Positions 787-21,035 of a stretch of 64,000 nt of DNA are shown one piece after another. Source of the stretch: Gallionellaceae bacterium (GTDB taxonomy: Bacteria > Pseudomonadota > Gammaproteobacteria > Burkholderiales > Gallionellaceae); contig DAIDMQ010000010.1 of assembly GCA_027448945.1 (NCBI GenBank), positions 1-64,000 on the forward strand, given 5' to 3'. Each line of letters starts with the position of its first letter. Positions within the stretch are counted from its first letter, which is position 1. The position numbers were made by a program, and so were the translations under genes. The notes beneath the pieces were generated by a model. That model saw nothing but the letters and a program-made list of their open reading frames with translations. It ran no database searches and was not told where the DNA came from.

Positions 787-3659
787 TGGCCACCGCACAG
801 ACCTCGCAAGCGGCCTCCGGTGGCAAGGGCGGCGGTGGTGGCGGAGGCGGAAGTCCTCAGGTGACCGGCTATCAGTACAGCGCATCGGTTGCCATCGGCT
901 TGTGTGAAGGTGCCGTCGGCGGCATCGTCAGCATCTGGGAAGGTAAAAAACAGGTCAACGGCATACAGGGTTCACCCACGACCAACAACTTCAAAGGGCT
1001 GCTCGCAGGCGGTGGTCAGGCCAAGTTCACCGGTGTGCCGGGACAAGCACCTTGGGCATATCTGTCCTCGCGCTATCCGGCACAGGCATTGAATTATCCG
1101 GGGCTGGCCTACATTGCCGCTACCAAGGTTGATCTGGGCACCAACGCGCAACTACCCAACTACTCCTTTGAGATGCAGGGCATGGCGCAATACTCCGCAG
1201 CCATCGTCGATGCCAATCCCCGTGATCTCATTTATGACTTTCTGACCAACGCCAAGCACGGTGCGCTGTTTCCGTCGGTGCAGGTCGGCGATACGGCGCA
1301 GTTCTCCAATTACTGTGTGGCCAACGGCATCTTCATCAGTGCCGTGGTGGATGCGCAGAAATCGGCTGCCGAATGGATATTGCAGTGGCTCAAGTGCTGC
1401 AATTCCACCGTGGTCTACTCGGACGGGCTACTCAAGTTCGTTCCCTATGGCGACGAGGTGGTGACCGGTAATGGCGTGACCTACACACCTGCCATCGCCC
1501 CGATTTACGACCTGGACGATGATGCATTCATTGCGGATACCGGCAGCGATCCGGTGACCGTGGTGCGCAAGGCGCAATCGGACACGCCCAATTCGATCAA
1601 GGTCGAGTTTGCAAACCGAGGCAACTTTTACAACCCGGAACTCGCAGAAGCACTCGATCAGGCCAACATCGAAGCCTACGGCTTGCGTCCGGCTTCACCC
1701 GAGAAATTGTCGGAAATCTGCAATGCCACGATCGCGCGTCATGTTGCGCAACTGATTCTGCAGCGCGGCCTGTACATCCGCAATCATTACGAATTCCGCC
1801 TGTCGTGGAAATACGCACTGCTGGAACCGATGGATGTGGTGACCCTCACCGATAGCGCCTTGGGACTGAACCGTGAACCGGTGCGTATCGTGAGCATCGA
1901 GGAAGACGAGTTCGGCTTGCTGACCGTGAGCGCCGAAGAGTTGCCGATCGGTGTAGCTGCCGCCGCCCGATACGCACAACAGGCAGGCAGCGGGTTTGCC
2001 GCCAACTATAACGTCGATCCGGGCAATGTTAATGCGCCAGTGATTTTTGAAGCGCCGGATCTGCTCACCGCAGGTACTGGGCTGGAAGTTTGGATTGCCG
2101 CATCGGGTGGTGCCAACTGGGGCGGTTGCGAAGTGTGGGTGTCACGCGACAACGCCACCTATCAGAAGGTCGGTGAGATTCATGGTGCGGCGCGTCACGG
2201 TGTACTGACGGCGGCCATAGCTAGCAGCAGTGATCCTGACCGAACCAACACACTGGCCGTGGATATATCGCTATCCGGTGGACAACTGACCGGCGGCACA
2301 CAGGCAGATGCCGATGCACTGAATACGCTGTGCTACGTCGATGGCGAACTGATCGCGTACCAGACAGCTACCCTGACCGGTACCGGCAAATACACGCTTG
2401 GTACCTATCTGCGACGCGGAGCCTATGGCACGACCATCAGGGCACACAACAAGGGTGGGCTGTTCGCACGACTGGATCAGGCGATCTTTGGTTACCCGTT
2501 CACCGCCGACATGATCGGGTTGCCGCTCTATATCAAGCTGCTGTCCTTCAACCAGTTTGGTAGTGCGAGGCAGTCGCTCGACATGGTGCAGCCGGTCACC
2601 TACAACGTGACCGGCATCGCATTGAAGTCCCCACTGCCGAATGTTGCAGGGCTGTCGAATGCCTACCGGAACGGACAAACATTGCTGTCGTGGCAGCCGG
2701 TAACGGATTTCCGCAGTGTCGATTATGAGGTACGACTGGGCGTCAACTGGCAAACCGCGATCGTGCAGGGTCGCACGCCGTTGCATGAGTTTGTTGTTGC
2801 GCAACCCGGCACCTATTGGGTGGCAGCACATTTCAGCAATGCCAGTGGAGTCACGGCCTATTCGGCTACTGCGCAATCCATCGCCATCGGTGGCGGCGTG
2901 TTGCCAGCCAATATCGTGGCCAGCGTGGACGAAGCAGTAACGGGATGGCGTGGTAGTTGCACCACCCCCGCTTTCCGCGATCCTGTAGAAAATGCCGTAA
3001 AACTCGGTGGTTCGGCCCTGTTCTCTGGCATTCCGCTGATCTCTGCTGCCAACACTGTGGAGTATTACGGCGGCATCGCCACCGGTGGTTACTACCAGAT
3101 CCCGGTTTCACACGAGATCGACATCGGTACCGCACAAGCCTGCAACGTGTCGGTCAGTGTGCAAGCAGTATCCGATACGCCGTTTGGTTCGGTGGCGGCA
3201 ATCCCGGTGTTCTCCGCGCAGGCCAGTGTGGCGGGCAATTTCTCGGGTAAATCGAGTCTGGCTATCGAGATCGATACCGCACCCAACACACTGGTCTGGC
3301 AAGGCTGGCGACCGTTCGTGCCGGGACAGTATGTCGCGCGCCGATTCCGTTTCAGGGTGAAGCTCGACAGTAACGATCCCACGGTCTCGACGATTCTGTC
3401 CGGCATGAGCTTCACGGTCGACATGCCGGATCGGGTGGATACCGGCACGGCACTGGCCGTACCGGCAGCAGGCAAAGCGATCGTGTTTGCCACACCGTTC
3501 CAGATCGTACCCAACGTGCAGATCACCATCCTCAACCCCAGTGCCGGAGACGTCATCGCCTTTCCGGCGCAACCCACGACAACCGGCTTCACGGTGCAGA
3601 TCACCAACGCGGGTGTCGGTGTGGCTCGCAACATCAACTGGCTCGCTAAGGGCTACTAA
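627..3659 (+). CDS. Phage tail-tip / host-specificity protein (J-like)
   Basis: A 1010-residue protein of the 'putative phage tail protein' family that forms the tail tip and contacts the host. The first 90 residues contain two glycine runs and the recognisable segment GLPKQIVYGRHRITGNILWY. The middle (about 190-450) has the conserved tail-protein segment with SAAEWILQWLKCCNSTVVYS. The C-terminal half is beta-rich with fibronectin-like stretches (about 660-760) and probably gives receptor specificity. The ATG at 627 follows GATAAGA. The gene is followed after 8 bases by the next tail gene on the same strand. The reading frame is intact. Confidence 0.85.
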   Translation: MGGLFGGGGSAPSAPAPQRLSGVRMQSSTFGLPKQIVYGRHRITGNILWYGDFVATAQTSQAASGGKGGGGGGGGSPQVTGYQYSASVAIGLCEGAVGGIVSIWEGKKQVNGIQGSPTTNNFKGLLAGGGQAKFTGVPGQAPWAYLSSRYPAQALNYPGLAYIAATKVDLGTNAQLPNYSFEMQGMAQYSAAIVDANPRDLIYDFLTNAKHGALFPSVQVGDTAQFSNYCVANGIFISAVVDAQKSAAEWILQWLKCCNSTVVYSDGLLKFVPYGDEVVTGNGVTYTPAIAPIYDLDDDAFIADTGSDPVTVVRKAQSDTPNSIKVEFANRGNFYNPELAEALDQANIEAYGLRPASPEKLSEICNATIARHVAQLILQRGLYIRNHYEFRLSWKYALLEPMDVVTLTDSALGLNREPVRIVSIEEDEFGLLTVSAEELPIGVAAAARYAQQAGSGFAANYNVDPGNVNAPVIFEAPDLLTAGTGLEVWIAASGGANWGGCEVWVSRDNATYQKVGEIHGAARHGVLTAAIASSSDPDRTNTLAVDISLSGGQLTGGTQADADALNTLCYVDGELIAYQTATLTGTGKYTLGTYLRRGAYGTTIRAHNKGGLFARLDQAIFGYPFTADMIGLPLYIKLLSFNQFGSARQSLDMVQPVTYNVTGIALKSPLPNVAGLSNAYRNGQTLLSWQPVTDFRSVDYEVRLGVNWQTAIVQGRTPLHEFVVAQPGTYWVAAHFSNASGVTAYSATAQSIAIGGGVLPANIVASVDEAVTGWRGSCTTPAFRDPVENAVKLGGSALFSGIPLISAANTVEYYGGIATGGYYQIPVSHEIDIGTAQACNVSVSVQAVSDTPFGSVAAIPVFSAQASVAGNFSGKSSLAIEIDTAPNTLVWQGWRPFVPGQYVARRFRFRVKLDSNDPTVSTILSGMSFTVDMPDRVDTGTALAVPAAGKAIVFATPFQIVPNVQITILNPSAGDVIAFPAQPTTTGFTVQITNAGVGVARNINWLAKGY

Positions 3660-4618: not shown

Positions 4619-4987
4619 ATGCAACATCTCGATCACAACGTCATTCTGCGCATCCATCCACAGGCGATACCGAACGTGGATTTTTACGCGCGCATCGTCG
4701 GCGAAAACACGCTGCCCGAGTTGGTATGGCTGTCCGACAGTTTGCCAGAACCTACCCATGATGAATTGCAGACGGCGATCACCCGTGAACTTGCCGAGCG
4801 ACAGGCCAAAGCCTATATCGCCCAGCGCGCTGCCGAGTATCCGCCGATGCAGGACTACATCGATGCGCAGGTCAAAAAAGCATCCAGCGATCCTGCCGTC
4901 AGGGAAGCGGGAATCGCACAGGAGGCAGCCTACATCTCCACTTGCACCGCCATCAAAACCAAATATCCGAAGGGAGAAAACAAATGA
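4619..4987 (+). CDS. Small phage tail-module protein, XkdW-like
   Basis: A 122-residue protein starting 9 bases after the fibre-like gene, with a GGAGG ribosome site. It is hydrophilic, with a helical stretch (about 50-85: ELAERQAKAYIAQRAAEYPP). It resembles the XkdW-type or phage-tail-assembly chaperone-like proteins often found between fibre and lysis genes. The stop overlaps the next start by ATGA. The function is not known from sequence. Confidence 0.5.
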   Translation: MQHLDHNVILRIHPQAIPNVDFYARIVGENTLPELVWLSDSLPEPTHDELQTAITRELAERQAKAYIAQRAAEYPPMQDYIDAQVKKASSDPAVREAGIAQEAAYISTCTAIKTKYPKGENK

Positions 4988-5256
4988 GTCAGAACAATGC
5001 AGGTGAACGCGAACATTGGCATGTCGGCAAGGAAATCCCGCTGGCGCTGATCGTGGCAATCGTAACCCAGACCGCCACTGGCATCTGGTGGCTGTCCAGC
5101 GTATCGAGCAAATTGGACAACCTGTCCGGTCAGGTGAAGGAGATGCGTGACGAGCGCTATACCCGAAATGACGCCATGCGCGATGCGGCGCTGGTCAATC
5201 AAATGCTGCACGACATGGACCGCCGTGTCACCACACTGGAGGCGAGACACAAATGA
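4984..5256 (+). CDS. Small phage membrane protein, possible lysis accessory
   Basis: A 90-residue protein. The start at 4984 is chosen because ATGA overlaps the preceding stop. Residues 1-15 are polar, 17-38 form one hydrophobic helix (PLALIVAIVTQTATGIWWL), and the remainder is a charged heptad-like helix. The gene overlaps the endolysin start by ATGA, so it belongs to the lysis cassette. It could be a holin-accessory or spanin-like protein; no lipobox is present. Confidence 0.5.
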   Translation: MSQNNAGEREHWHVGKEIPLALIVAIVTQTATGIWWLSSVSSKLDNLSGQVKEMRDERYTRNDAMRDAALVNQMLHDMDRRVTTLEARHK

Positions 5257-13476: not shown

Positions 13477-13640
13477 ACGACGTACATTCGTTCGGTTTCA
13501 AACGCACCATTATTTCAGCACATGCGGATTTTTTTCTAACGGCTGACTTTGCAGGATATACCGCTTACCCCCCATGCTAATTCCGCGAAGTCAGCGAACT
13601 GTTTTAAATATCAACTGATTACCGCCATACAGATATACCT

Positions 13641-14960
13641 TTAAGCTCCGAACTCTGCTAACTGTGCATCGAATAGTTGGTAAACCGTTGTTGGGCCGCC
13701 CGGTGATGCTTTTGGGCGCGGAACGATCTGGACACTGATACGCGGAATCCCTGAATTCAGCAGGCCGTTGATAGCTGCATCGATCTGCACCTTTGACACA
13801 TGACCACGAAAACACTCCACCGAGATTTCCTGCCGGGTCGCACGCCCGCGCTGCCGCAGGAATTCAACAATACGGTCTGCATGATCGGTTTTCACGATGG
13901 CCTTGCCCGGTTTGGCTCCATCGCTAAACACATACCGCACCGAAGCATCCGCATAATGAATCCAGGCCATGGCGGCCTCGATGTGGCACAGGTCAATGCA
14001 CGTTTGCAGGTCAGTCAGCGCAAAAAGCATGGCCATGCGCAACAGCATCGGCGCATGGCGCTCTTTCAAGGAGGCAAAGTGATCTGCGCCATGCTCGTCA
14101 TTCAGCTCATGCCGGTAAATTTGCGCATACCGCTGCTGAGCCTGCCCCGTCAGTTCCATCCGCATATGGTTACGGCGCTGATACTGATCGACCCCGACAA
14201 ATTTCAGAATCTGCAAAATCCGCAGTGACAGCGCATCCACGACGGCTTGGGATGTGGCCTGCGGGAATGGCAAAACATGTTGTCGCTCTGCCCAGATCAT
14301 CAGAAACCGGTTGGCAAAACCGTTCGTCAAATCGCGCGCGGACAGCATGCCGGACAACTCGCCGGGCGTGATCGCACCACTCAGGCACACATGCGGATTG
14401 CTGGCGAACATTCGATTGGTCTTGGTGGCTGGCTTCAGACACACTCCATCCCAGCAATCCCGAAGTGCCGCCGACAAAGTATTGCCATCGCGTCTGCCCT
14501 GATGCAGCACATTGGCAAATTCCGATTCCACCACCCAGAGACGTTTGTCATCCACTGCTGGTATGTCGAGCCTGCCTTGCCGGTAACCATCATGGATCAA
14601 TGCGACCAAACCCTCGCGCGTCGATAGACCACCCCGATGCAGTTGCGGTGCATACGGCTCGTCCAATTTACGCACGGCAGCATCGAGCCGCAGCACCAGC
14701 GACAAGGCATCGCCCTTGCGCCCCCGACCGGAGCGGCCAATATGCAGCGTGAACAGTCTGGGATGATGCCATGTGTTGCCGACTGGCAGGTACGGACCGC
14801 ACCCAACCGCACAAGAGAGATAGGCCATGAAGTTGACCGCAATGGCATAGGGATTGGCCTCGGTACCATCACCGCCTGCTCGGGCCACGTCGCCCACCAA
14901 GCCATACAGGCACGCCTGACTGGCGGTCGGCGCATCATCCGGTGCTTGCTTTGGTTTCAA
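13641..14960 (-). CDS. DUF3987 P-loop ATPase (primase/helicase-associated type)
   Basis: A 439-residue protein matching DUF3987, a group often fused to or encoded beside primases and helicases on mobile elements. A degenerate Walker A is seen as GRSGRGRKG (75-83) and a Walker B-like segment as LWVVESEFANVL (141-152), followed by RDGNTLSAALRDCWDG and NGFANRFLMIW, typical of the family. The C-terminal part (about 355-425) looks like a winged helix. Its start overlaps the upstream ParB-like gene by ATGA, making it the last gene of a four-gene operon. No primase catalytic domain is present. It is convergent with metR. Confidence 0.75.
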   Translation of the reverse strand: MKPKQAPDDAPTASQACLYGLVGDVARAGGDGTEANPYAIAVNFMAYLSCAVGCGPYLPVGNTWHHPRLFTLHIGRSGRGRKGDALSLVLRLDAAVRKLDEPYAPQLHRGGLSTREGLVALIHDGYRQGRLDIPAVDDKRLWVVESEFANVLHQGRRDGNTLSAALRDCWDGVCLKPATKTNRMFASNPHVCLSGAITPGELSGMLSARDLTNGFANRFLMIWAERQHVLPFPQATSQAVVDALSLRILQILKFVGVDQYQRRNHMRMELTGQAQQRYAQIYRHELNDEHGADHFASLKERHAPMLLRMAMLFALTDLQTCIDLCHIEAAMAWIHYADASVRYVFSDGAKPGKAIVKTDHADRIVEFLRQRGRATRQEISVECFRGHVSKVQIDAAINGLLNSGIPRISVQIVPRPKASPGGPTTVYQLFDAQLAEFGA

Positions 14961-15844
14961 GCCGTGCCGTCCAGAGAAGTTGCCTGAACGATATTTTGCA
15001 GCTCATGCAGCACGTCAGGCTGGTGCAAAGTCAAATAGCGCACGACCGACGGATTATCCAACAGTTTGGTCAAATAGCCTCGCGCCAGCACCAGATTCAG
15101 CACATCCTGCCCATAGCTTTGCTCGACCAGCCTGTACCGCTCTTGCAGGTTGCCCATTTCCTGTTCCATCTTGGCCATTTGTTCCGATGAGACTCCTTTG
15201 ATTTTCTGGGGCTTGCTGTTCTGAACCAATTGATGACCCGGTGTGGCCGCCAAGAGAGCCTCCGCGTAGCTCACCGTCAGGTTATTGGCGGACACCATGA
15301 GTTCTACGCATTCGATTTGCCGCATCGATTTCATCTTGCGCAGAATCCCTCCCACATTGGCGGAAAAATGCTGATCTTCCAGCATCTCGGCGGCCTCCGG
15401 GCATATGCCATCCAGCAGATTGAGTTTCCTGGTGATCTGGCTGACATCCACATCCAAGGCTTGTGCAAGCCTAGCAGGTGTCACCCCGCGTTCAACGGCA
15501 CGCCGGATCATGAAATGCTCCTGAACCGAGGAAAGCCTGCTGATCCGGTTGTTGTAGGTATAGGTCTCGTCGTCAGTGGCAACCAGACAGGGAGCATCAG
15601 CATATCCAAGTTCGTGCATGGCCAACAGGCGGATGTGCCCATCCAGCAAGGTATGCAGGCCGGATTCCTTGTCTGCGCGGCTGATGGTAAGCGGCTCGAT
15701 CAGTCCTACCGCCTCGATGGATGCCTTGATCTGTTTGAATTTCTTTGACCCACTCAGACCAGCTGACATTTTTCGGGATGGCAGAATGCGCTCGAGCGAC
15801 ACCCTCAATTGTTCCGGAATGAACCCAAGCGGTAACTGTTTCAT
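14957..15844 (-). CDS. ParB/RepB-like protein 2
   Basis: A 295-residue protein with a ParB-type N-terminal domain (about 15-110), including the loop LLDGHIRLLAMHELG (67-80) that corresponds to ParB box II. A helix-turn-helix follows (VTPARLAQALDVDVSQITRK), then a RepB-like C-terminal region with a coiled-coil stretch (about 225-255). It differs from its neighbour at 15841 but shares its layout. Both junctions overlap by ATGA. No ParA is present in the window, which argues against ordinary plasmid partition; a role in regulating or targeting the recombinase is inference. Confidence 0.75.
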   Translation of the reverse strand: MKQLPLGFIPEQLRVSLERILPSRKMSAGLSGSKKFKQIKASIEAVGLIEPLTISRADKESGLHTLLDGHIRLLAMHELGYADAPCLVATDDETYTYNNRISRLSSVQEHFMIRRAVERGVTPARLAQALDVDVSQITRKLNLLDGICPEAAEMLEDQHFSANVGGILRKMKSMRQIECVELMVSANNLTVSYAEALLAATPGHQLVQNSKPQKIKGVSSEQMAKMEQEMGNLQERYRLVEQSYGQDVLNLVLARGYLTKLLDNPSVVRYLTLHQPDVLHELQNIVQATSLDGTA

Positions 15845-16740
15845 GCAGAGCGATCTCCGGACCAGACACGATCGGACAGATATTTCGGCAAGGTATCCAA
15901 CCCCTCCGCACGCAACAGGGTTGTAAAATTCTCGTCGGCCAGCATGCTACGCAACGCGCCAACAATGAACATCAACCACTGTTGGCTCACATGAGCTTTC
16001 TTGACGAGAAGTTTCTGCCGGTCGACTTCGCGCTGGTAATTCCTGATCAGACTGGACGTGCTGATTTCGGATGATTTTTTGAGGATGTGTCGTGAACCCG
16101 CCTTGCCGAACCGCTGGCGGCTTTCCATCACGCGGCGCGCCTGAATCAGTTGCTTGCCGCGCAGTTTTCCCGACTCATAGGCTTCCTGCAGGGCAGCCTG
16201 CACGTTTTGTTCGTCAACCCCTGCACGCGCAATGTCGAGCGCGGCATTCAACGGAATTTTGCCGACCTCAACTGCCGCCATCAGGCGCTCTTCACCATTC
16301 TCGATAAGGTTCAATATCCCGCCCACATATTCCGCAGTCAGTCCGGTTTTGCTGGCGATGTCGTGTTTGTTATACCCCTGTTCCGCCAGACGTCCGATAC
16401 CTGCCAGAAGCTCGAGTGGCTGGTGCTGGCGACGGGCAATGTTTTCCGCGAGGCTCATGATGAAAGCCTCCTCGTCATCCACCTGAACCACCATAGCCGG
16501 AATTTCTTCTGCACTCAGCGATTGATATGCCTTGAGCCGTCCCTCGCCACAGATCAACAGGAATCGCTCCCCATCCCTGCCGGATCGGGGCGTGACCGTG
16601 ATCGGTTTTTTCAGGCCAACCGTTTTGATATTGCCAATGATTTCGTCAAACTTCTGCTTGTTTCTGGCCCGAGGATTGAGTACGTCAATCAGGCCAACAG
16701 GAATCATGCGTATCTCGCCAGTGCGATGCGGTTCGCTCAT
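15841..16740 (-). CDS. ParB/RepB-like protein 1
   Basis: A 299-residue protein with a complete ParB N-terminal domain: an NPR motif (22-24), VGLKKPITVTPR, and box II CGEGRLKAYQSL (64-75, GExRxxA type), then SLAENIARRQHQPLE. A helix-turn-helix lies near 118-141 (YNKHDIASKTGLTAEYVGGI) and the C-terminal third is helical and basic. The box II pattern is the one used for CTP binding in canonical ParB, so switching is possible here but not shown. ATGA overlaps couple it to the recombinase upstream and the second ParB-like gene downstream. Confidence 0.8.
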   Translation of the reverse strand: MSEPHRTGEIRMIPVGLIDVLNPRARNKQKFDEIIGNIKTVGLKKPITVTPRSGRDGERFLLICGEGRLKAYQSLSAEEIPAMVVQVDDEEAFIMSLAENIARRQHQPLELLAGIGRLAEQGYNKHDIASKTGLTAEYVGGILNLIENGEERLMAAVEVGKIPLNAALDIARAGVDEQNVQAALQEAYESGKLRGKQLIQARRVMESRQRFGKAGSRHILKKSSEISTSSLIRNYQREVDRQKLLVKKAHVSQQWLMFIVGALRSMLADENFTTLLRAEGLDTLPKYLSDRVWSGDRSA

Positions 16741-18296
16741 GCCGCTCTCCTAATAGAGGTGCGCACGCCCATGCCGTACAGGTAATCGAGCGTGTCGAAA
16801 CGATAGCTTTCAAATTCGATGGCGTTCTGTTCTGCCAACCGGATACCATTCCCGCCAAAATCCAGTTTCGGCAGCAGGTAATAGTCGAGCGGAGACTGAT
16901 TATCCTGATCCAGCCGGATAGCGATCGTTATATCCGGCGACAGGCTGGTATCGAATCTGACTTTCCAGCGAAAACCGCCACTGGGCAAGGCTTGGCATCT
17001 GGCCAGCACCAGAGAGATGGTGATCTCCCGGTTGATGATGAGCAGGTCAGTTTCCGGATCGTGCTCCACCAACGCGCCCAAAGCAGACATTTTCTCGATG
17101 GTCTGGAAAACGACCTGCGGGTGCAGGCGGCGCAGAAACTTGTTGATCTCGATGTAACGGTAATCCCGGTCGGGCGTAAATCCCACGGCTTGATAGGCAC
17201 GCAGCAGGCTGCCGAAATGATGCAAATAAGCCGCCTTGGATGGCATACCATCGGTTTCATCGATGATGAGGCCTGACAGAAACCCGCGTTGCTCGTACAG
17301 CATGCGCAACTTTTCGATCAGTTCTTCCTTGGAGTAGCGATAGGCACGAGCGCGGATGATGCCCTGTGCGGTATAGAACAGCTCCGGCTGGACGATCCCT
17401 TCGAAGGCTCCGTCCTTTCTGATCCACATGTCGGGTGTATTGGAAACGCGATGCCGTTTGAGCTTGAACGAGATCCGGTTATAGACGTTGTTGCCGATAT
17501 ATTTCTCGTTGGACAGCACCTCCCGTACTGTGCCGCGCGTCCAGTGCCTGCCAAGGTCGGTCAGAATGTTGCGCTCATTGAGCCGGTTGGCGATTTCGGA
17601 TTCCATCAATCCTTCATCGGCAAACCAGCGGTAGATCTGGTTGACGACTGCGGTTTCTTGTTCGGGGCCGGGTGTCAGAATGACACGATCCGTTTGCAGG
17701 CTTTTGTGCTCGCCTTTGGCAAGCTCTGATTTGACAGCGCCGGTCTGGTCCAGCAACGTCCGGCGCAAACCGAATCCGGCAGGTCCGCCTTGCCGGTAGC
17801 CGAGTTCGATCAGGCGGCACTGTCCGGCAAATACCTTGACCGACAATTCCCGGCTGTACTCTCCCGCCATGGCCCGCTTGACGCCTTTGACGATGGTAGA
17901 AACCGGCGAGCCGTCATTCTCGAACTGCTCGGCACAATACGCGACCTGGATGCCTGCCCGGCGGCAGATGTATTCGTAATAGGCGCTCTCGTCGGCATCC
18001 TGGAATCGCCCCCAACGACTGACGTCATACACGAGGATGATGGAGAAATCCGCTTTCCCGTTCTCGACATCATGGATGAGTTGCTGGAGCGATGCCCGAC
18101 CTTCCATACGCAATCCGCTCTTGCCATCGTCGGCATAGGTGCGCACGATTTCAATTCTGCGCCGTGCCGCATACTCGCGGATTTTGTCGCCCTGATTTTC
18201 TGTGGAGTATTGCTGATGCTCGGTCGACATCCGCACATATTGGGCTGCCCGGAAAACAGGTTCTCCGGGCACTGATTCATCGTTTATTGCTTCCAT
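16737..18296 (-). CDS. Large serine recombinase
   Basis: A 519-residue site-specific recombinase. The resolvase catalytic domain spans about 15-165, with nucleophile Ser24 in YVRMSTEHQQYS and VYDVSRWGRF. The recombinase DNA-binding domain spans about 180-300 (GPAGFGLRR, NERNILTDLGRHWTRGTVRE, LSNEKYIGNNVYNR). The last 200 residues form a second region without the usual Cys-rich zinc ribbon. AGGGG precedes ATG 18296. It heads the operon with two ParB-like genes and DUF3987, all overlapping by 4 bases. A 10-bp inverted repeat lies 40 bases upstream. It may move or invert the element; no att site was identified. Confidence 0.85.
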   Translation of the reverse strand: MEAINDESVPGEPVFRAAQYVRMSTEHQQYSTENQGDKIREYAARRRIEIVRTYADDGKSGLRMEGRASLQQLIHDVENGKADFSIILVYDVSRWGRFQDADESAYYEYICRRAGIQVAYCAEQFENDGSPVSTIVKGVKRAMAGEYSRELSVKVFAGQCRLIELGYRQGGPAGFGLRRTLLDQTGAVKSELAKGEHKSLQTDRVILTPGPEQETAVVNQIYRWFADEGLMESEIANRLNERNILTDLGRHWTRGTVREVLSNEKYIGNNVYNRISFKLKRHRVSNTPDMWIRKDGAFEGIVQPELFYTAQGIIRARAYRYSKEELIEKLRMLYEQRGFLSGLIIDETDGMPSKAAYLHHFGSLLRAYQAVGFTPDRDYRYIEINKFLRRLHPQVVFQTIEKMSALGALVEHDPETDLLIINREITISLVLARCQALPSGGFRWKVRFDTSLSPDITIAIRLDQDNQSPLDYYLLPKLDFGGNGIRLAEQNAIEFESYRFDTLDYLYGMGVRTSIRRAA

Positions 18297-18335
18297 TTCT
18301 TGCCCCTGACAAATCTTTTCACTCGAAATCTCCGA

Positions 18336-18365
18336 CCGGAAACCTGATGCAGCCGAGGTTTCCGG
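18336..18365. promoter_or_regulatory. Perfect 10-bp inverted repeat upstream of the recombinase operon
   Basis: CCGGAAACCT (18336-18345) and AGGTTTCCGG (18356-18365) are separated by exactly 10 bases and end 40 bases before the recombinase start. Half-site centres are 20 bases apart, about two helical turns, which suits a dimeric protein site such as a ParB/parS-like or recombinase site. In RNA it would make a leader hairpin instead. Confidence 0.6.
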
Positions 18366-18455
18366 GCCGGACTGGTGCGATCACGAGCGAAGATAACAGA
18401 CAATCAAGGGGTTACAAATGACGGCTTCACCTTGCAATCAATGGGATAAAAGGTG

Positions 18456-18878
18456 TTAAGTGGCTGATAAAACTGCGATCTCCACAATCCACGAGGTTTC
18501 CTTTGCAATCACCCCGTCCGCAATTAACGTGAGTCTGTATCTGCCTGATGGAATAGCTGAAAATGATTCTGACGCGGCTTCCTTTGCAATCCCTGCTTGC
18601 CGCCGTTTCTGGTTGCGCTGGTTTTGCCGATCCCGATTACGGATGACATATTCCGGATTTGCAGCCCGGTATTTCTTCGAGTAGTCTGGATTCTTGGCTG
18701 CCCAGTCACGGCTGGCTTGGGCGTGATCCAGCAGTGAGTCCTCTGACCGGCGGCGCTTCTGCTGAGCTTTTCGTCGGCGCTCACGCTGACAGGCCGGGTC
18801 GGAGCAGTATCGCTGGCTGGGTGTTTGCGGCACGGGCCGGAAAGTTTTGCCGCAAGATGCGCATCGTTTTGTTTGCAT
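18456..18878 (-). CDS. Small zinc-ribbon protein of mobile-element type
   Basis: A 140-residue basic protein. Start 18878 is chosen because it follows GGAG; the open frame continues to 18917. The N-terminus has a four-Cys site (Cys6, Cys9, Cys25, Cys30: CASCGK followed by RYCSDPAC), then a strongly basic helix and a NPDYSKKYRAANPEYVIRNR segment. Proteins of this kind recur beside recombinases and insertion elements. A DNA- or RNA-binding role is inference. It lies 160 bases upstream of the recombinase gene on the same strand and is divergent from the Fic gene. Confidence 0.65.
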   Translation of the reverse strand: MQTKRCASCGKTFRPVPQTPSQRYCSDPACQRERRRKAQQKRRRSEDSLLDHAQASRDWAAKNPDYSKKYRAANPEYVIRNRDRQNQRNQKRRQAGIAKEAASESFSAIPSGRYRLTLIADGVIAKETSWIVEIAVLSAT

Positions 18879-18963
18879 TGCTTTTCTCCATACGTTATTA
18901 AGGGAATGGAGACGCAACGGCTGTTATTTTCCAAACTCAGTCGCTATTAAATAGGCACACATG

Positions 18964-18992
18964 TTGACATTTATTGCACACTAAAGCATTAT
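18964..18992 (+). promoter_or_regulatory. Candidate sigma-70 promoter for the Fic gene
   Basis: TTGACA at 18964-18969 and CATTAT at 18987-18992 are separated by 17 bases, 32 bases before the Fic start. A second TTGACA lies at 18995-19000. The gap (18879-19023) is AT-rich and shared with the divergent zinc-ribbon gene. Confidence 0.5.
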
Positions 18993-19023
18993 TATTGACA
19001 ATATTTCCCGATCTGGCTACTTA

Positions 19024-20562
19024 ATGCGCACAAATAATGACATTCTCCCGCTTCTGATCTTCAGCTCTGCCGAAGATCAGGCGAACGCGCAGCGCGTTTC
19101 CAGATTGGCTCGCGCCGGGAAGTTACGTCCCATTCATCGCGGCATTTACACCAGCGATCTGGAAACGCCGCTCGAACAAATCGTGCGGCCAAACTGGCGG
19201 CAGATTGCCGAGTATCTCTATCCCGGGTCGGTTCTCGGCTATCGCTCTGCGCAAGAGGGAAAGCCAGATCCGGAGGGGCGAATTTTTCTGGTTCAGGGAA
19301 ACCGGGCGCGACGGACTGAATTACCCGGCCTCACGCTGATCACCATTCCCGGCCCCGGTCCTGTCTTGGGGCTGGAACCTGCACTGAATGACACCCCTTA
19401 CGGCAAACTGTTTGTTTCGTCCGAAGCCCGCCGTCTTTTGGAAAATCTTTATGCCGGTCGTGATTCCGCCATACGGACGATGGGGCGAGCTTGGGTGGAA
19501 TCCCACCTGAGTCGGCTCTGCACGCTACGCGGCGAATACAAGGTCAACGACCTGCGCGACACTGCCCGGCAACTGGCAGAAATACTGGGACTGGATACCC
19601 AGTTCAAAATCCTGAACGGCATCGTCTCGGCATTGATGCAGACCGGTGAAGCCAGACGTTTAAGTGCCGTTGATGCGCTCGCGCGCGCCGCTGGAAAACC
19701 CTACGATCCTGATCGTCTGGTTATTTTTGATGCTCTGTTTACAGCGCTGCGGCAATCGTTTCCACAGGTGCCTGATCCAACCACACCGGGGTTGAGCAGC
19801 ATCAATTTTGCATTCTTTGAATCCTATTTCTCCAACTACATCGAGGGCACGACCTTCACCGTAGAGGAAGCCAGCGAGATTATTTTTGAAGGCAAGATGA
19901 TCGAGAAACGTCCCGAGGACTCGCATGACGTGCTCGGCACTTATCAGGCCATCACCCGCCAACCTTTCCGGTCAAGCCCTCCGGGCAATGAAGATGAATT
20001 TTTGGAATGGCTGAAACTCACCAACCATATGGTGCTGTCCAGCCGCCCGGAGAAACATCCGGGACAGTGGAAAGTAAAACTCAATCAGGCTGGCTCTACC
20101 TTGTTTGTTCATCCCGAACTGGTGCAAGGCACCCTGCGAGAAGGATTCAAGCGTGTTGCGTTACTGGAAGACCCGTTTGCCCGAGCATTGATGGCCATGT
20201 TCGTCGTGACGGAGGTGCATCCTTTTGAGGATGGCAATGGCCGAACTGCACGACTGGCCATGAATGCCTATCTGACTCAGGCATCCGCCTGTCGCATCAT
20301 TATCCCGACGGCCTATCGCGAGGATTATTTACTCCCCCTTAAAGCACTATCCAGGAATGCCGACCCGGTTCCATTTCTCCGTTCAATGACTCGCGCTCAG
20401 GCATGGTCGGCTGCATTCGACTATTCCGACTTCCAGAGCACATGGAAACAAATGGCAGCATGCAATGCTTTTGCCGATGACATCACCAGAAACAAGTTAC
20501 TGCATCCTCACGAAGTGCGCAGTCTTGTTGACGACAACGAGATCAATAACAAGTCTTATTGA
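19024..20562 (+). CDS. Fic-domain AMP-transferase with an AbiEi-like N-terminal domain
   Basis: A 512-residue protein. Residues about 1-110 resemble the winged-helix antitoxin domain of AbiEi type (AQRVSRLARAGKLRPIHRGI followed by YTSD). Residues about 260-455 form a Fic domain with the complete catalytic motif HPFEDGNGRTAR (His399 to Arg410). The inhibitory motif of class II Fic proteins, S/T-x3-E-G, is present as SNYIEG (270-275), so activity is probably self-restrained. Fic enzymes usually transfer AMP onto target proteins. It is divergent from the zinc-ribbon and recombinase block and followed by a terminator after a 264-base gap. A toxin-antitoxin or defence role is inference. Confidence 0.85.
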   Translation: MRTNNDILPLLIFSSAEDQANAQRVSRLARAGKLRPIHRGIYTSDLETPLEQIVRPNWRQIAEYLYPGSVLGYRSAQEGKPDPEGRIFLVQGNRARRTELPGLTLITIPGPGPVLGLEPALNDTPYGKLFVSSEARRLLENLYAGRDSAIRTMGRAWVESHLSRLCTLRGEYKVNDLRDTARQLAEILGLDTQFKILNGIVSALMQTGEARRLSAVDALARAAGKPYDPDRLVIFDALFTALRQSFPQVPDPTTPGLSSINFAFFESYFSNYIEGTTFTVEEASEIIFEGKMIEKRPEDSHDVLGTYQAITRQPFRSSPPGNEDEFLEWLKLTNHMVLSSRPEKHPGQWKVKLNQAGSTLFVHPELVQGTLREGFKRVALLEDPFARALMAMFVVTEVHPFEDGNGRTARLAMNAYLTQASACRIIIPTAYREDYLLPLKALSRNADPVPFLRSMTRAQAWSAAFDYSDFQSTWKQMAACNAFADDITRNKLLHPHEVRSLVDDNEINNKSY

Positions 20563-20826
20563 CAGAACGACTGACTGATGTGGGGGGATTTGCTGTTCTG
20601 TTGACCCCACAATCATGCGGCACGCCTTCCAGTTCAATTCCCAAACCCGAAATTGAACCCGCGTCCGCAGCCACTCTATCGGCAACGAAACAACCGGTGA
20701 GTTTCCTGATAAGATGCTTGTCGAATAAGGGGTTTTGGTAGGTTTTCGCAGCTGCCCGCAATGACTCGCAGGCGTTGGGAGAACTTAAATTGACACGGGG
20801 TTGCACCCCACCACCAATATAAGCAA
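20563..20826. other. Non-coding stretch after the Fic gene
   Basis: No supported gene is seen here. Short open frames on both strands lack ribosome sites and family signals. A GGGG-TTGCA-CCCC hairpin near 20797-20809 looks superficially like a tRNA T-arm but has a 5-base loop and no matching tRNA body. The stretch may be remnant sequence at the right edge of the mobile region. Confidence 0.5.
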
Positions 20827-20852
20827 GCCTCGCAGAAATGCGGGGCTTTTTT
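20827..20852 (+). terminator. Intrinsic terminator (plus strand)
   Basis: GCCTCGCA, a GAAA loop and TGCGGGGC form an 8-bp stem (one G-T pair) followed by six T. It probably ends the Fic transcript. The stem is identical to the opposing terminator at 21036-21061. Confidence 0.8.
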
Positions 20853-21035
20853 ATTTGGGGGTAGTGTTCAAAATTGGACAATCACCTCGGAGTTAAGTCG
20901 AATAGCTTTACTACCTATCAGGTCTCAGCAAAACAGACTTCGTTTCCAATATTTACTATTTATAGCGTTTTCAGGTGATGTAACTGTACATCTTACATAC
21001 GAAGCTATGTCGCAACTAGCTGAGCATGCATTAAT
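20853..21035. other. AT-rich spacer between two opposed terminators
   Basis: 183 bases with no open frame, promoter or repeat that can be supported. It separates the plus-strand and minus-strand terminators. Confidence 0.5.

Follow-up and report, generated by a model that had tools for sequence, protein, structure and literature searches.

A recombinase-ParB-ParB gene set shared as a block between bacteria, and its probable role in small genomic islands

The subject of this work is an operon in a 64,000-nucleotide stretch of DNA from a Gallionellaceae bacterium (contig DAIDMQ010000010.1 of assembly GCA_027448945.1), which we call the window. The operon encodes a serine recombinase (REC), two different ParB-like proteins (ParB1 and ParB2) and a protein of the DUF3987 family, and upstream of it lies a gene for a small protein with four cysteines (ZN). 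The recombinase and ParB genes are found in the same order in related loci and are shared as a block across genera and plasmids with different flanks. We propose that they form the integration or mobility module of small serine-recombinase genomic islands, with ParB accessories and an optional part made of DUF3987 and iterons, and we put the probability of this reading at about 0.7. The gene set is widespread and apparently unnamed. Its features in the window are the following.

16737..18296, minus strand: recombinase (REC), 519 aa, with PF00239 and PF07508 (Pfam)
15841..16740, minus strand: ParB1, 299 aa, ParB_N plus a RepB-type region (PF02195 and PF07506)
14957..15844, minus strand: ParB2, 295 aa, divergent ParB/RepB protein (PF07506, E 3e-45)
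13641..14960, minus strand: DUF3987 ATPase-like protein, 439 aa, TTG start, optional fourth gene (PF13148)
18456..18878, minus strand: small Cys4 zinc-ribbon-like protein (ZN), ATG at 18878; the open reading frame (ORF) reaches 18917
18885..18912, no strand: palindrome TCTCCAT-N14-ATGGAGA (palindrome scan), overlapping the likely ribosome-binding site of ZN

The first-pass annotation of this DNA had described four genes in this order, joined by three ATGA overlaps. All four ORFs were found on the minus strand, and the REC/ParB1 and ParB1/ParB2 junctions do read ATGA, but the third reads TTGA, DUF3987 starting with TTG. Overlaps of 4 bp recur between REC and ParB1 in 76 related loci and between ParB1 and ParB2 in 81 (raw counts, without a denominator); other gaps between the three genes also occur, partly due to a crude choice of start codons. 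Because the 4-bp overlaps recur and the gene order is kept in relatives, both are more than chance.

Conservation of the order was assessed with a ParB2 profile, which gave at least 592 confirmed places in genome contigs, the best 80 of which resolved into 79 loci, and a further 74 loci in IMG/VR. These 79 and 74 loci are the nearest relatives, so that the window's type is over-represented in the counts. A locus was scorable where its contig reaches far enough upstream, which applied to 74 of the 79 genome loci and to 46 IMG/VR loci. The order REC-ParB1-ParB2 is kept in 72/74 scorable genome loci, as judged by script together with a reading by eye of five ORF-boundary artefacts. The script alone scored REC in 72 and ParB1 in 71 of them, the ParB1 misses at L125, L100 and L093 being such artefacts by eye. 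In IMG/VR, REC was scored in all 46 scorable loci and ParB1 in 44; the remaining two were again ORF-boundary artefacts, so that the order is kept in 46/46 once these are allowed for by eye. Homologous loci thus usually, and not rarely, keep the genes together, as expected of the single functional unit that had been proposed. What stood of the four-gene unit is its recombinase-ParB-ParB core; the core also includes the Cys4 gene upstream, with a homologue before REC in 69/71 scorable genome loci as against 7/38 IMG/VR loci, and DUF3987 is optional, directly following ParB2 in 26/74 genome loci and in 9 of 70 IMG/VR loci whose contigs extend 1.5 kb or more downstream.

PLSDB contains 108 plasmid records with relatives. 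Twelve loci, from six of these records and from six of the 19 genomes that matched, formed an earlier set; all 12 keep the trio and none has DUF3987. One of them, L027 (NZ_CP110863.1, 7083-8867), has both ParBs in a single frame, an ORF of 594 aa; the record bears the label Lactiplantibacillus plantarum, and a fusion or a contaminated record is possible. In a phylum-even sample of 398 genomes (own genome included), ParB2 was present in 26 at E<=1e-40. A search of E. coli with one Pseudomonas recombinase gene gave no match at the DNA level.

These results also bear on an ordinary plasmid remnant, in which the ParBs would be left over from a partition locus beside a resolvase and a replication protein. 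ParB1 and ParB2 do match RepB/ParB families, many relatives are plasmid-borne as just described, and DUF3987 resembles phage helicase/primase families. The order is nevertheless kept in many genera, mostly on draft contigs, and this conservation largely refutes the remnant, which we consider very unlikely. Moreover, in two annotated plasmids that carry the module, the genes for ParA and RepA, or for ParA and ParB, are several kb away from it. As the first-pass annotation had stated, there is no ParA beside the operon: PF13614 has six matches in the genome, none of them on the window's contig. The proteins resemble those of the ParABS, repABC and Noc systems in that ParB1 has ParB-type motifs and both ParBs match solved Noc/Spo0J chains; unlike in those systems, ParA is not adjacent and the genes form a fixed operon with a recombinase.

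Modules 85-98% identical were found in records named Thiomonas, Comamonas, Cupriavidus, Rhodanobacter, Acidovorax, Pigmentiphaga and others, and many near-identical pairs have the module alone in common, between unrelated flanks. Near-identical modules in different genera with unrelated flanks indicate that the module moves as a block, and the suggested link to mobility is thereby borne out; gene order and block-wise spread are both well supported. In two groups of such modules (groups 1 and 2), where the left flanks differ, conservation begins near the ZN palindrome, and the shared block ends about 90 bp past DUF3987 in group 1 and about 220 bp past ParB2 in group 2. Two modules lie within 20 kb of each other at 3/79 genome loci (L131, L142 and L143).

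The 74 IMG/VR loci could suggest a temperate-phage integration module, the islands then being prophage relics. PHROG families match REC, ParB1 and ParB2, a tRNA-Met gene (tRNA, transfer RNA) lies upstream in two contigs of one group, and lysis-like genes were spotted by eye. Only 1 of 50,697 deposited phage records has a match, however, and six flanking proteins from four IMG/VR contigs gave no phage structural match (two of them matched nothing), which makes a phage origin quite unlikely. Within an IMG/VR group, L206 (5832-7412) and L204 (5715-5722) differ to the right of the module by a stretch of about 1.6 kb with genes that look lysis-like by eye; as the difference falls within these genes, it was rejected as a clean cassette.

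On Sphingobium conjugative plasmids (L240, L025 and L239), the stretch right of ParB2 and beyond DUF2493-SSB is variable and contains McrBC, an SNF2-related gene, or an AAA ATPase plus a restriction endonuclease. The block boundary differs between these plasmids, and no exact empty site was found among them. On plasmid pMSHV (L239, 6746-10337), the module has three genes for tyrosine-type recombinases immediately to its left.

T-arm-like junctions were found on Agrobacterium and Rhizobium plasmids. A 3.9-kb unit of one ORF and the trio (L026, 4996-8899) in pAt of A. fabrum C58 is 96.9% identical in pAt1D1460, a plasmid deposited as three records, and its flanks differ between the two. The unit lies between two junctions that resemble the T-arm of a tRNA. 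Its AbiEii-side flank is common to plasmids without the module: among the 50 matches listed out of 230, 10 run through, 10 stop at 4941-5019, 3 contain only the unit, and the other 27 stop elsewhere. Four further plasmids carry the Fic-side flank of pAt1D1460, and there the matches stop at query positions 3023, 3023, 3015 and 3023, all inside the T-arm-like motif. A comparison by eye of twelve selected junctions showed a likeness to CCTTGANNGGANTYGAACC, a sequence similar to a tRNA T-arm read on the other strand; nine fit this pattern and three (L244, L249 and L250) are degenerate. Eight of the twelve border no recombinase module. Plasmid L242 has VapBC between two T-arm-like motifs, and A. 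larrymoorei (L243) has a single motif at that place. tRNA genes themselves were rejected as the direct target: those near a few modules (L037, L083, L111, L154, L168, L178, L208 and L212) do not demonstrably adjoin the ends.

For the window's own block, the following features were considered in addition.

13585..13598, minus strand: two degenerate iteron-like TTCGC copies, 9 bp apart, 3' of DUF3987
19024..20562, plus strand: Fic-domain gene with an AbiEi-like N-terminus, cargo, divergent from the operon
20631..20659, no strand: inverted pair of tRNA T-arm-like sequences 3' of the Fic gene
20632..20816, no strand: conserved outer block end of about 185 bp, ending in ...CCCCACCACCA
about 20825-20856, no strand: terminator-like hairpin after the CCCCACCACCA end, seen by eye

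In the two closest of four congeners, homology downstream of metR reaches no further than 13508, and in the others it stops earlier. Together with the conserved outer end that reaches 20816, this suggests that the inserted block probably spans about 13509-20816. The Cys4 ORF (18456-18917) and the Fic gene (19024-20562) probably belong to the same block as the operon, and the span of 13641..18296 given earlier is too short, as both lie beyond it, upstream of REC. One relative carries another serine recombinase downstream of metR, a different gene at 7660-9015 of L034 (relative G025; by eye from the ORF list), and this place may therefore be an insertion hot spot.

The outer end of about 185 bp is 69-89% identical to copies in congeners. 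It recurs, as a cassette-like repeat, in L074, L075 and L077-L079, following Fic genes in the first two, with no module of this kind within the 5 kb examined. The inverted pair, also present after the Fic gene in L074 and L075, differs from the T-arm-like consensus by one mismatch in each copy; shuffled sequences give 0.83 such occurrences per 7.6 kb. Ends of the CACCACCA type are found outside other modules; in betaproteobacterial blocks they are mostly CACCACCA, often but not always before a hairpin, and may be related to the T-arm-like junctions. The outer end was rejected as a transfer-messenger RNA (tmRNA) because this genome has an intact beta_tmRNA of its own on a different contig and the Rfam matches lie below the gathering scores.

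A recombinase activity for REC is suggested by its residues R22, S24, D91, R94 and R97, which are invariant in 32/32 aligned sequences (window included) and which we take to be the catalytic-type residues of the resolvase domain. Both PF00239 and PF07508, the domain pair that defines large serine recombinases, were found in 11/11 recombinases scanned, and PF18780 matches weakly in 6 of these 11. A C-terminal zinc-ribbon (CxxC) domain is typical of large serine recombinases; among 119 related recombinase ORFs, none has a CxxC within its C-terminal 330 aa. The protein resembles the large serine integrases of phages (PHROG 95; SPbeta YokA) in its catalytic and recombinase domains, and differs from them in lacking zinc-ribbon-type cysteines and in having a separate Cys4 gene upstream. 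The C2-C2 cysteine pattern is present in 85/86 ZN relatives, and one may speculate that the separate Cys4 protein stands in for the missing zinc ribbon.

Serine recombinases include invertases, REC has a PHROG DNA invertase match, and an inverted T-arm-like pair follows the Fic gene, all of which could fit a DNA-inversion switch controlling the neighbouring Fic/AbiE genes. Such a switch is nonetheless highly improbable: the architecture is long and includes PF07508, the PHROG integrase match (1.2e-57) is stronger than the invertase match, and the modules adjoin different neighbours.

The ParB1 profile matches the solved chains of Spo0J, Noc and ParB (best E 1.6e-17), and the motifs CGEGR/CGQGR and ENxARR are conserved in 10 sequences; such GEGR/ENxxR-like motifs are presumably the ParB CTP-binding (cytidine triphosphate) motifs. 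ParB2 matches the Noc chain best (7e-11) and has no PF02195 match at E<=0.01. The second motif is not kept in it; it carries NRISRLSSVQEH where ParB1 has ENIARR. As a parS-like site, the palindrome upstream of ZN is no more than a candidate: the scan detected one at the corresponding position in some of the relatives and none in many loci.

DUF3987 may contribute a replication function. The protein matches PHROG phage helicase/primase families, and GRSGRGRKGD and WVVESEF, which would correspond to Walker-type motifs, are invariant in 18 aligned sequences (window included); a sequence search of PDB with DUF3987 gave no useful match. TTTCGC copies were counted within 250 bp after DUF3987, or after ParB2 where DUF3987 is absent. 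At least three copies were found in 24/35 loci with DUF3987 as against 0/112 without it, and in 20 of 7000 simulated first-order stretches; TTTCGC is wholly absent after DUF3987 in 6/35 loci. Most DUF3987 relatives thus have an array of 3-8 copies, neighbours being mostly 9 bp apart. With helicase/primase matches and iterons beside DUF3987 in most relatives, the earlier statement that replication genes are absent is doubtful, and DUF3987 with its iterons looks like an optional replication part.

We propose that the recombinase would cut and rejoin DNA at short sites at the block ends, which on Agrobacterium and Rhizobium plasmids would be the T-arm-like sequences. ParB1, ParB2 and the Cys4 protein would be co-expressed site-binding accessory factors acting in synapsis, direction or regulation, and the ParBs would not belong to a ParA partition system. 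Where present, DUF3987 and the iterons might serve as an optional replication or unwinding part, by analogy with the helicase-plus-iteron part of SCCmec (staphylococcal cassette chromosome mec), and Fic/AbiE, VapBC, restriction and other genes would ride next to the module as varied cargo. The catalytic activity of REC, excision of the block, the functions assigned to the two ParBs, ZN and DUF3987, and a recent move of the window copy are predictions from sequence. If they hold, toxin-antitoxin, defence and other genes would have in the module a carrier that is common, given the 26/398 genomes with ParB2, and as yet unnamed. ParB proteins would then act in recombination rather than in segregation, and REC would be a naturally occurring serine recombinase that lacks the usual zinc domain.

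Several observations weigh against this proposal. Two genome loci, L134 and L139, are true exceptions to the gene order and have no REC. Some near-identical pairs also have several kb of flank in common, and these may have been inherited within larger islands. The right end in the two groups examined consists of iterons or a GGCGAACAGCGGCACC end, not of a T-arm. As a universal end the T-arm was rejected: within 400 bp downstream of the modules of the 153-locus set, 3 strict motifs occur in 58,000 bp, compared with 116 in 2.30 Mb overall. In the window itself, no clear T-arm motif was found at the left end, and the two iteron-like copies, at 42 and 51 after the DUF3987 stop, are degenerate, with no exact TTTCGC downstream of DUF3987. 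A comparison of empty and occupied sites had been suggested for the metR-nrdJ region; downstream of metR the relatives are not alike, and no empty site for the window copy emerged. Finally, the NCBIfam CcrB model (NF047343) matches REC at 9.6e-18 but with 64 bits against a cut-off of 900.

A more elaborate version of the mobility module is doubtful in our view. Here a serine recombinase with its zinc ribbon as a separate protein would be controlled in synapsis or direction by a CTP-gated pair of ParB clamps loaded at the palindrome; it would mobilise recombinase-less cassettes (AbiE, VapBC, Fic) in trans between T-arm-like sites, in an integron-like manner, and be amplified by the optional DUF3987-iteron replicon.

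The closest described relatives are the ssrA islands of Dehalococcoides, which come nearest, and SCCmec; the defining features of each were looked for, and neither set was found here. According to the accessible part of PMC3146451, the Dehalococcoides islands have a CcrB-like recombinase and a ParB-domain protein and insert in the T-loop of ssrA; their module, DsiB/DsiA, comprises two recombinases, one ParB-domain protein and RecF-like and Mom-like genes. As far as that text goes, the likeness lies in a large, possibly CcrB-like recombinase and a ParB-domain protein at one island edge, in tandem islands with diverse cargo, and in T-loop insertion, to be compared with the T-arm-like junctions of Agrobacterium and Rhizobium. 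The present module, by contrast, encodes a single recombinase, two proteins of the ParB/RepB type, a Cys4 protein and, optionally, DUF3987. No second small recombinase of the DsiA type was present among the six window proteins scanned, and a blastp search with the window REC revealed none inside the module in 12 relatives, although a very divergent copy could escape it; L024 has a second serine recombinase upstream of the module. An insertion in ssrA with direct repeats was likewise not found, the tmRNA gene being intact and the outer end not a tmRNA by Rfam; the junctions here are T-arm-like. SCCmec, as described in the accessible part of PMC7581432, combines CcrA/B/C with a Cch or Cch2 helicase and iterons, and replication after excision has been proposed. 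Both would be serine-recombinase islands, and a helicase-type gene adjoining iteron-like repeats may be a further likeness, although the window has just the two degenerate copies. They differ in that no Ccr model reaches its family cut-off with REC (CcrC scores 22 bits, again against 900, and CcrB is as far below as stated above), in that DUF3987 is not Cch/Cch2, and in the two ParBs and the hosts. Other ParB and recombinase contexts appear in the accessible parts of PMC6536676 and PMC9658991. No description of the gene set was found in the searchable full-text literature, which leaves out most subscription papers and preprints, and in it we found no accepted name, in line with the earlier note.

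The module often lies beside toxin and anti-phage genes, and its cargo is varied. Neighbours at the 79 genome loci fall into 320 clusters from 398 crude ORFs, the largest being AbiEii with 13 loci. Representatives of 140 of the 320 clusters were scanned with Pfam and PADLOC (crude ORF calls; the 25 commonest of 120 Pfam families listed), and among them were helicases, type I restriction, JetD, NYN, Fic, AbiEi and RmrA. Each of these was matched by few members, and families unlinked to defence are also present. With AbiEii, JetD, RmrA and type I restriction-modification as neighbours, and with a serine recombinase linked to phage defence in the accessible text of PMC12529663, the module might itself be an anti-phage or stress system, its recombinase and ParBs acting on invading DNA. 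This is unlikely, since the cargo is inconstant, the bare 3.9-kb unit exists in Agrobacterium, and PADLOC gave only chance-level matches for ParB1 and ParB2 (E 0.0017 or worse) and none for REC, DUF3987 or ZN. In the window, the Fic gene matches PF02661 (2.9e-11) and PADLOC SoFic (2e-14), with AbiEi_4 below its cut-off.

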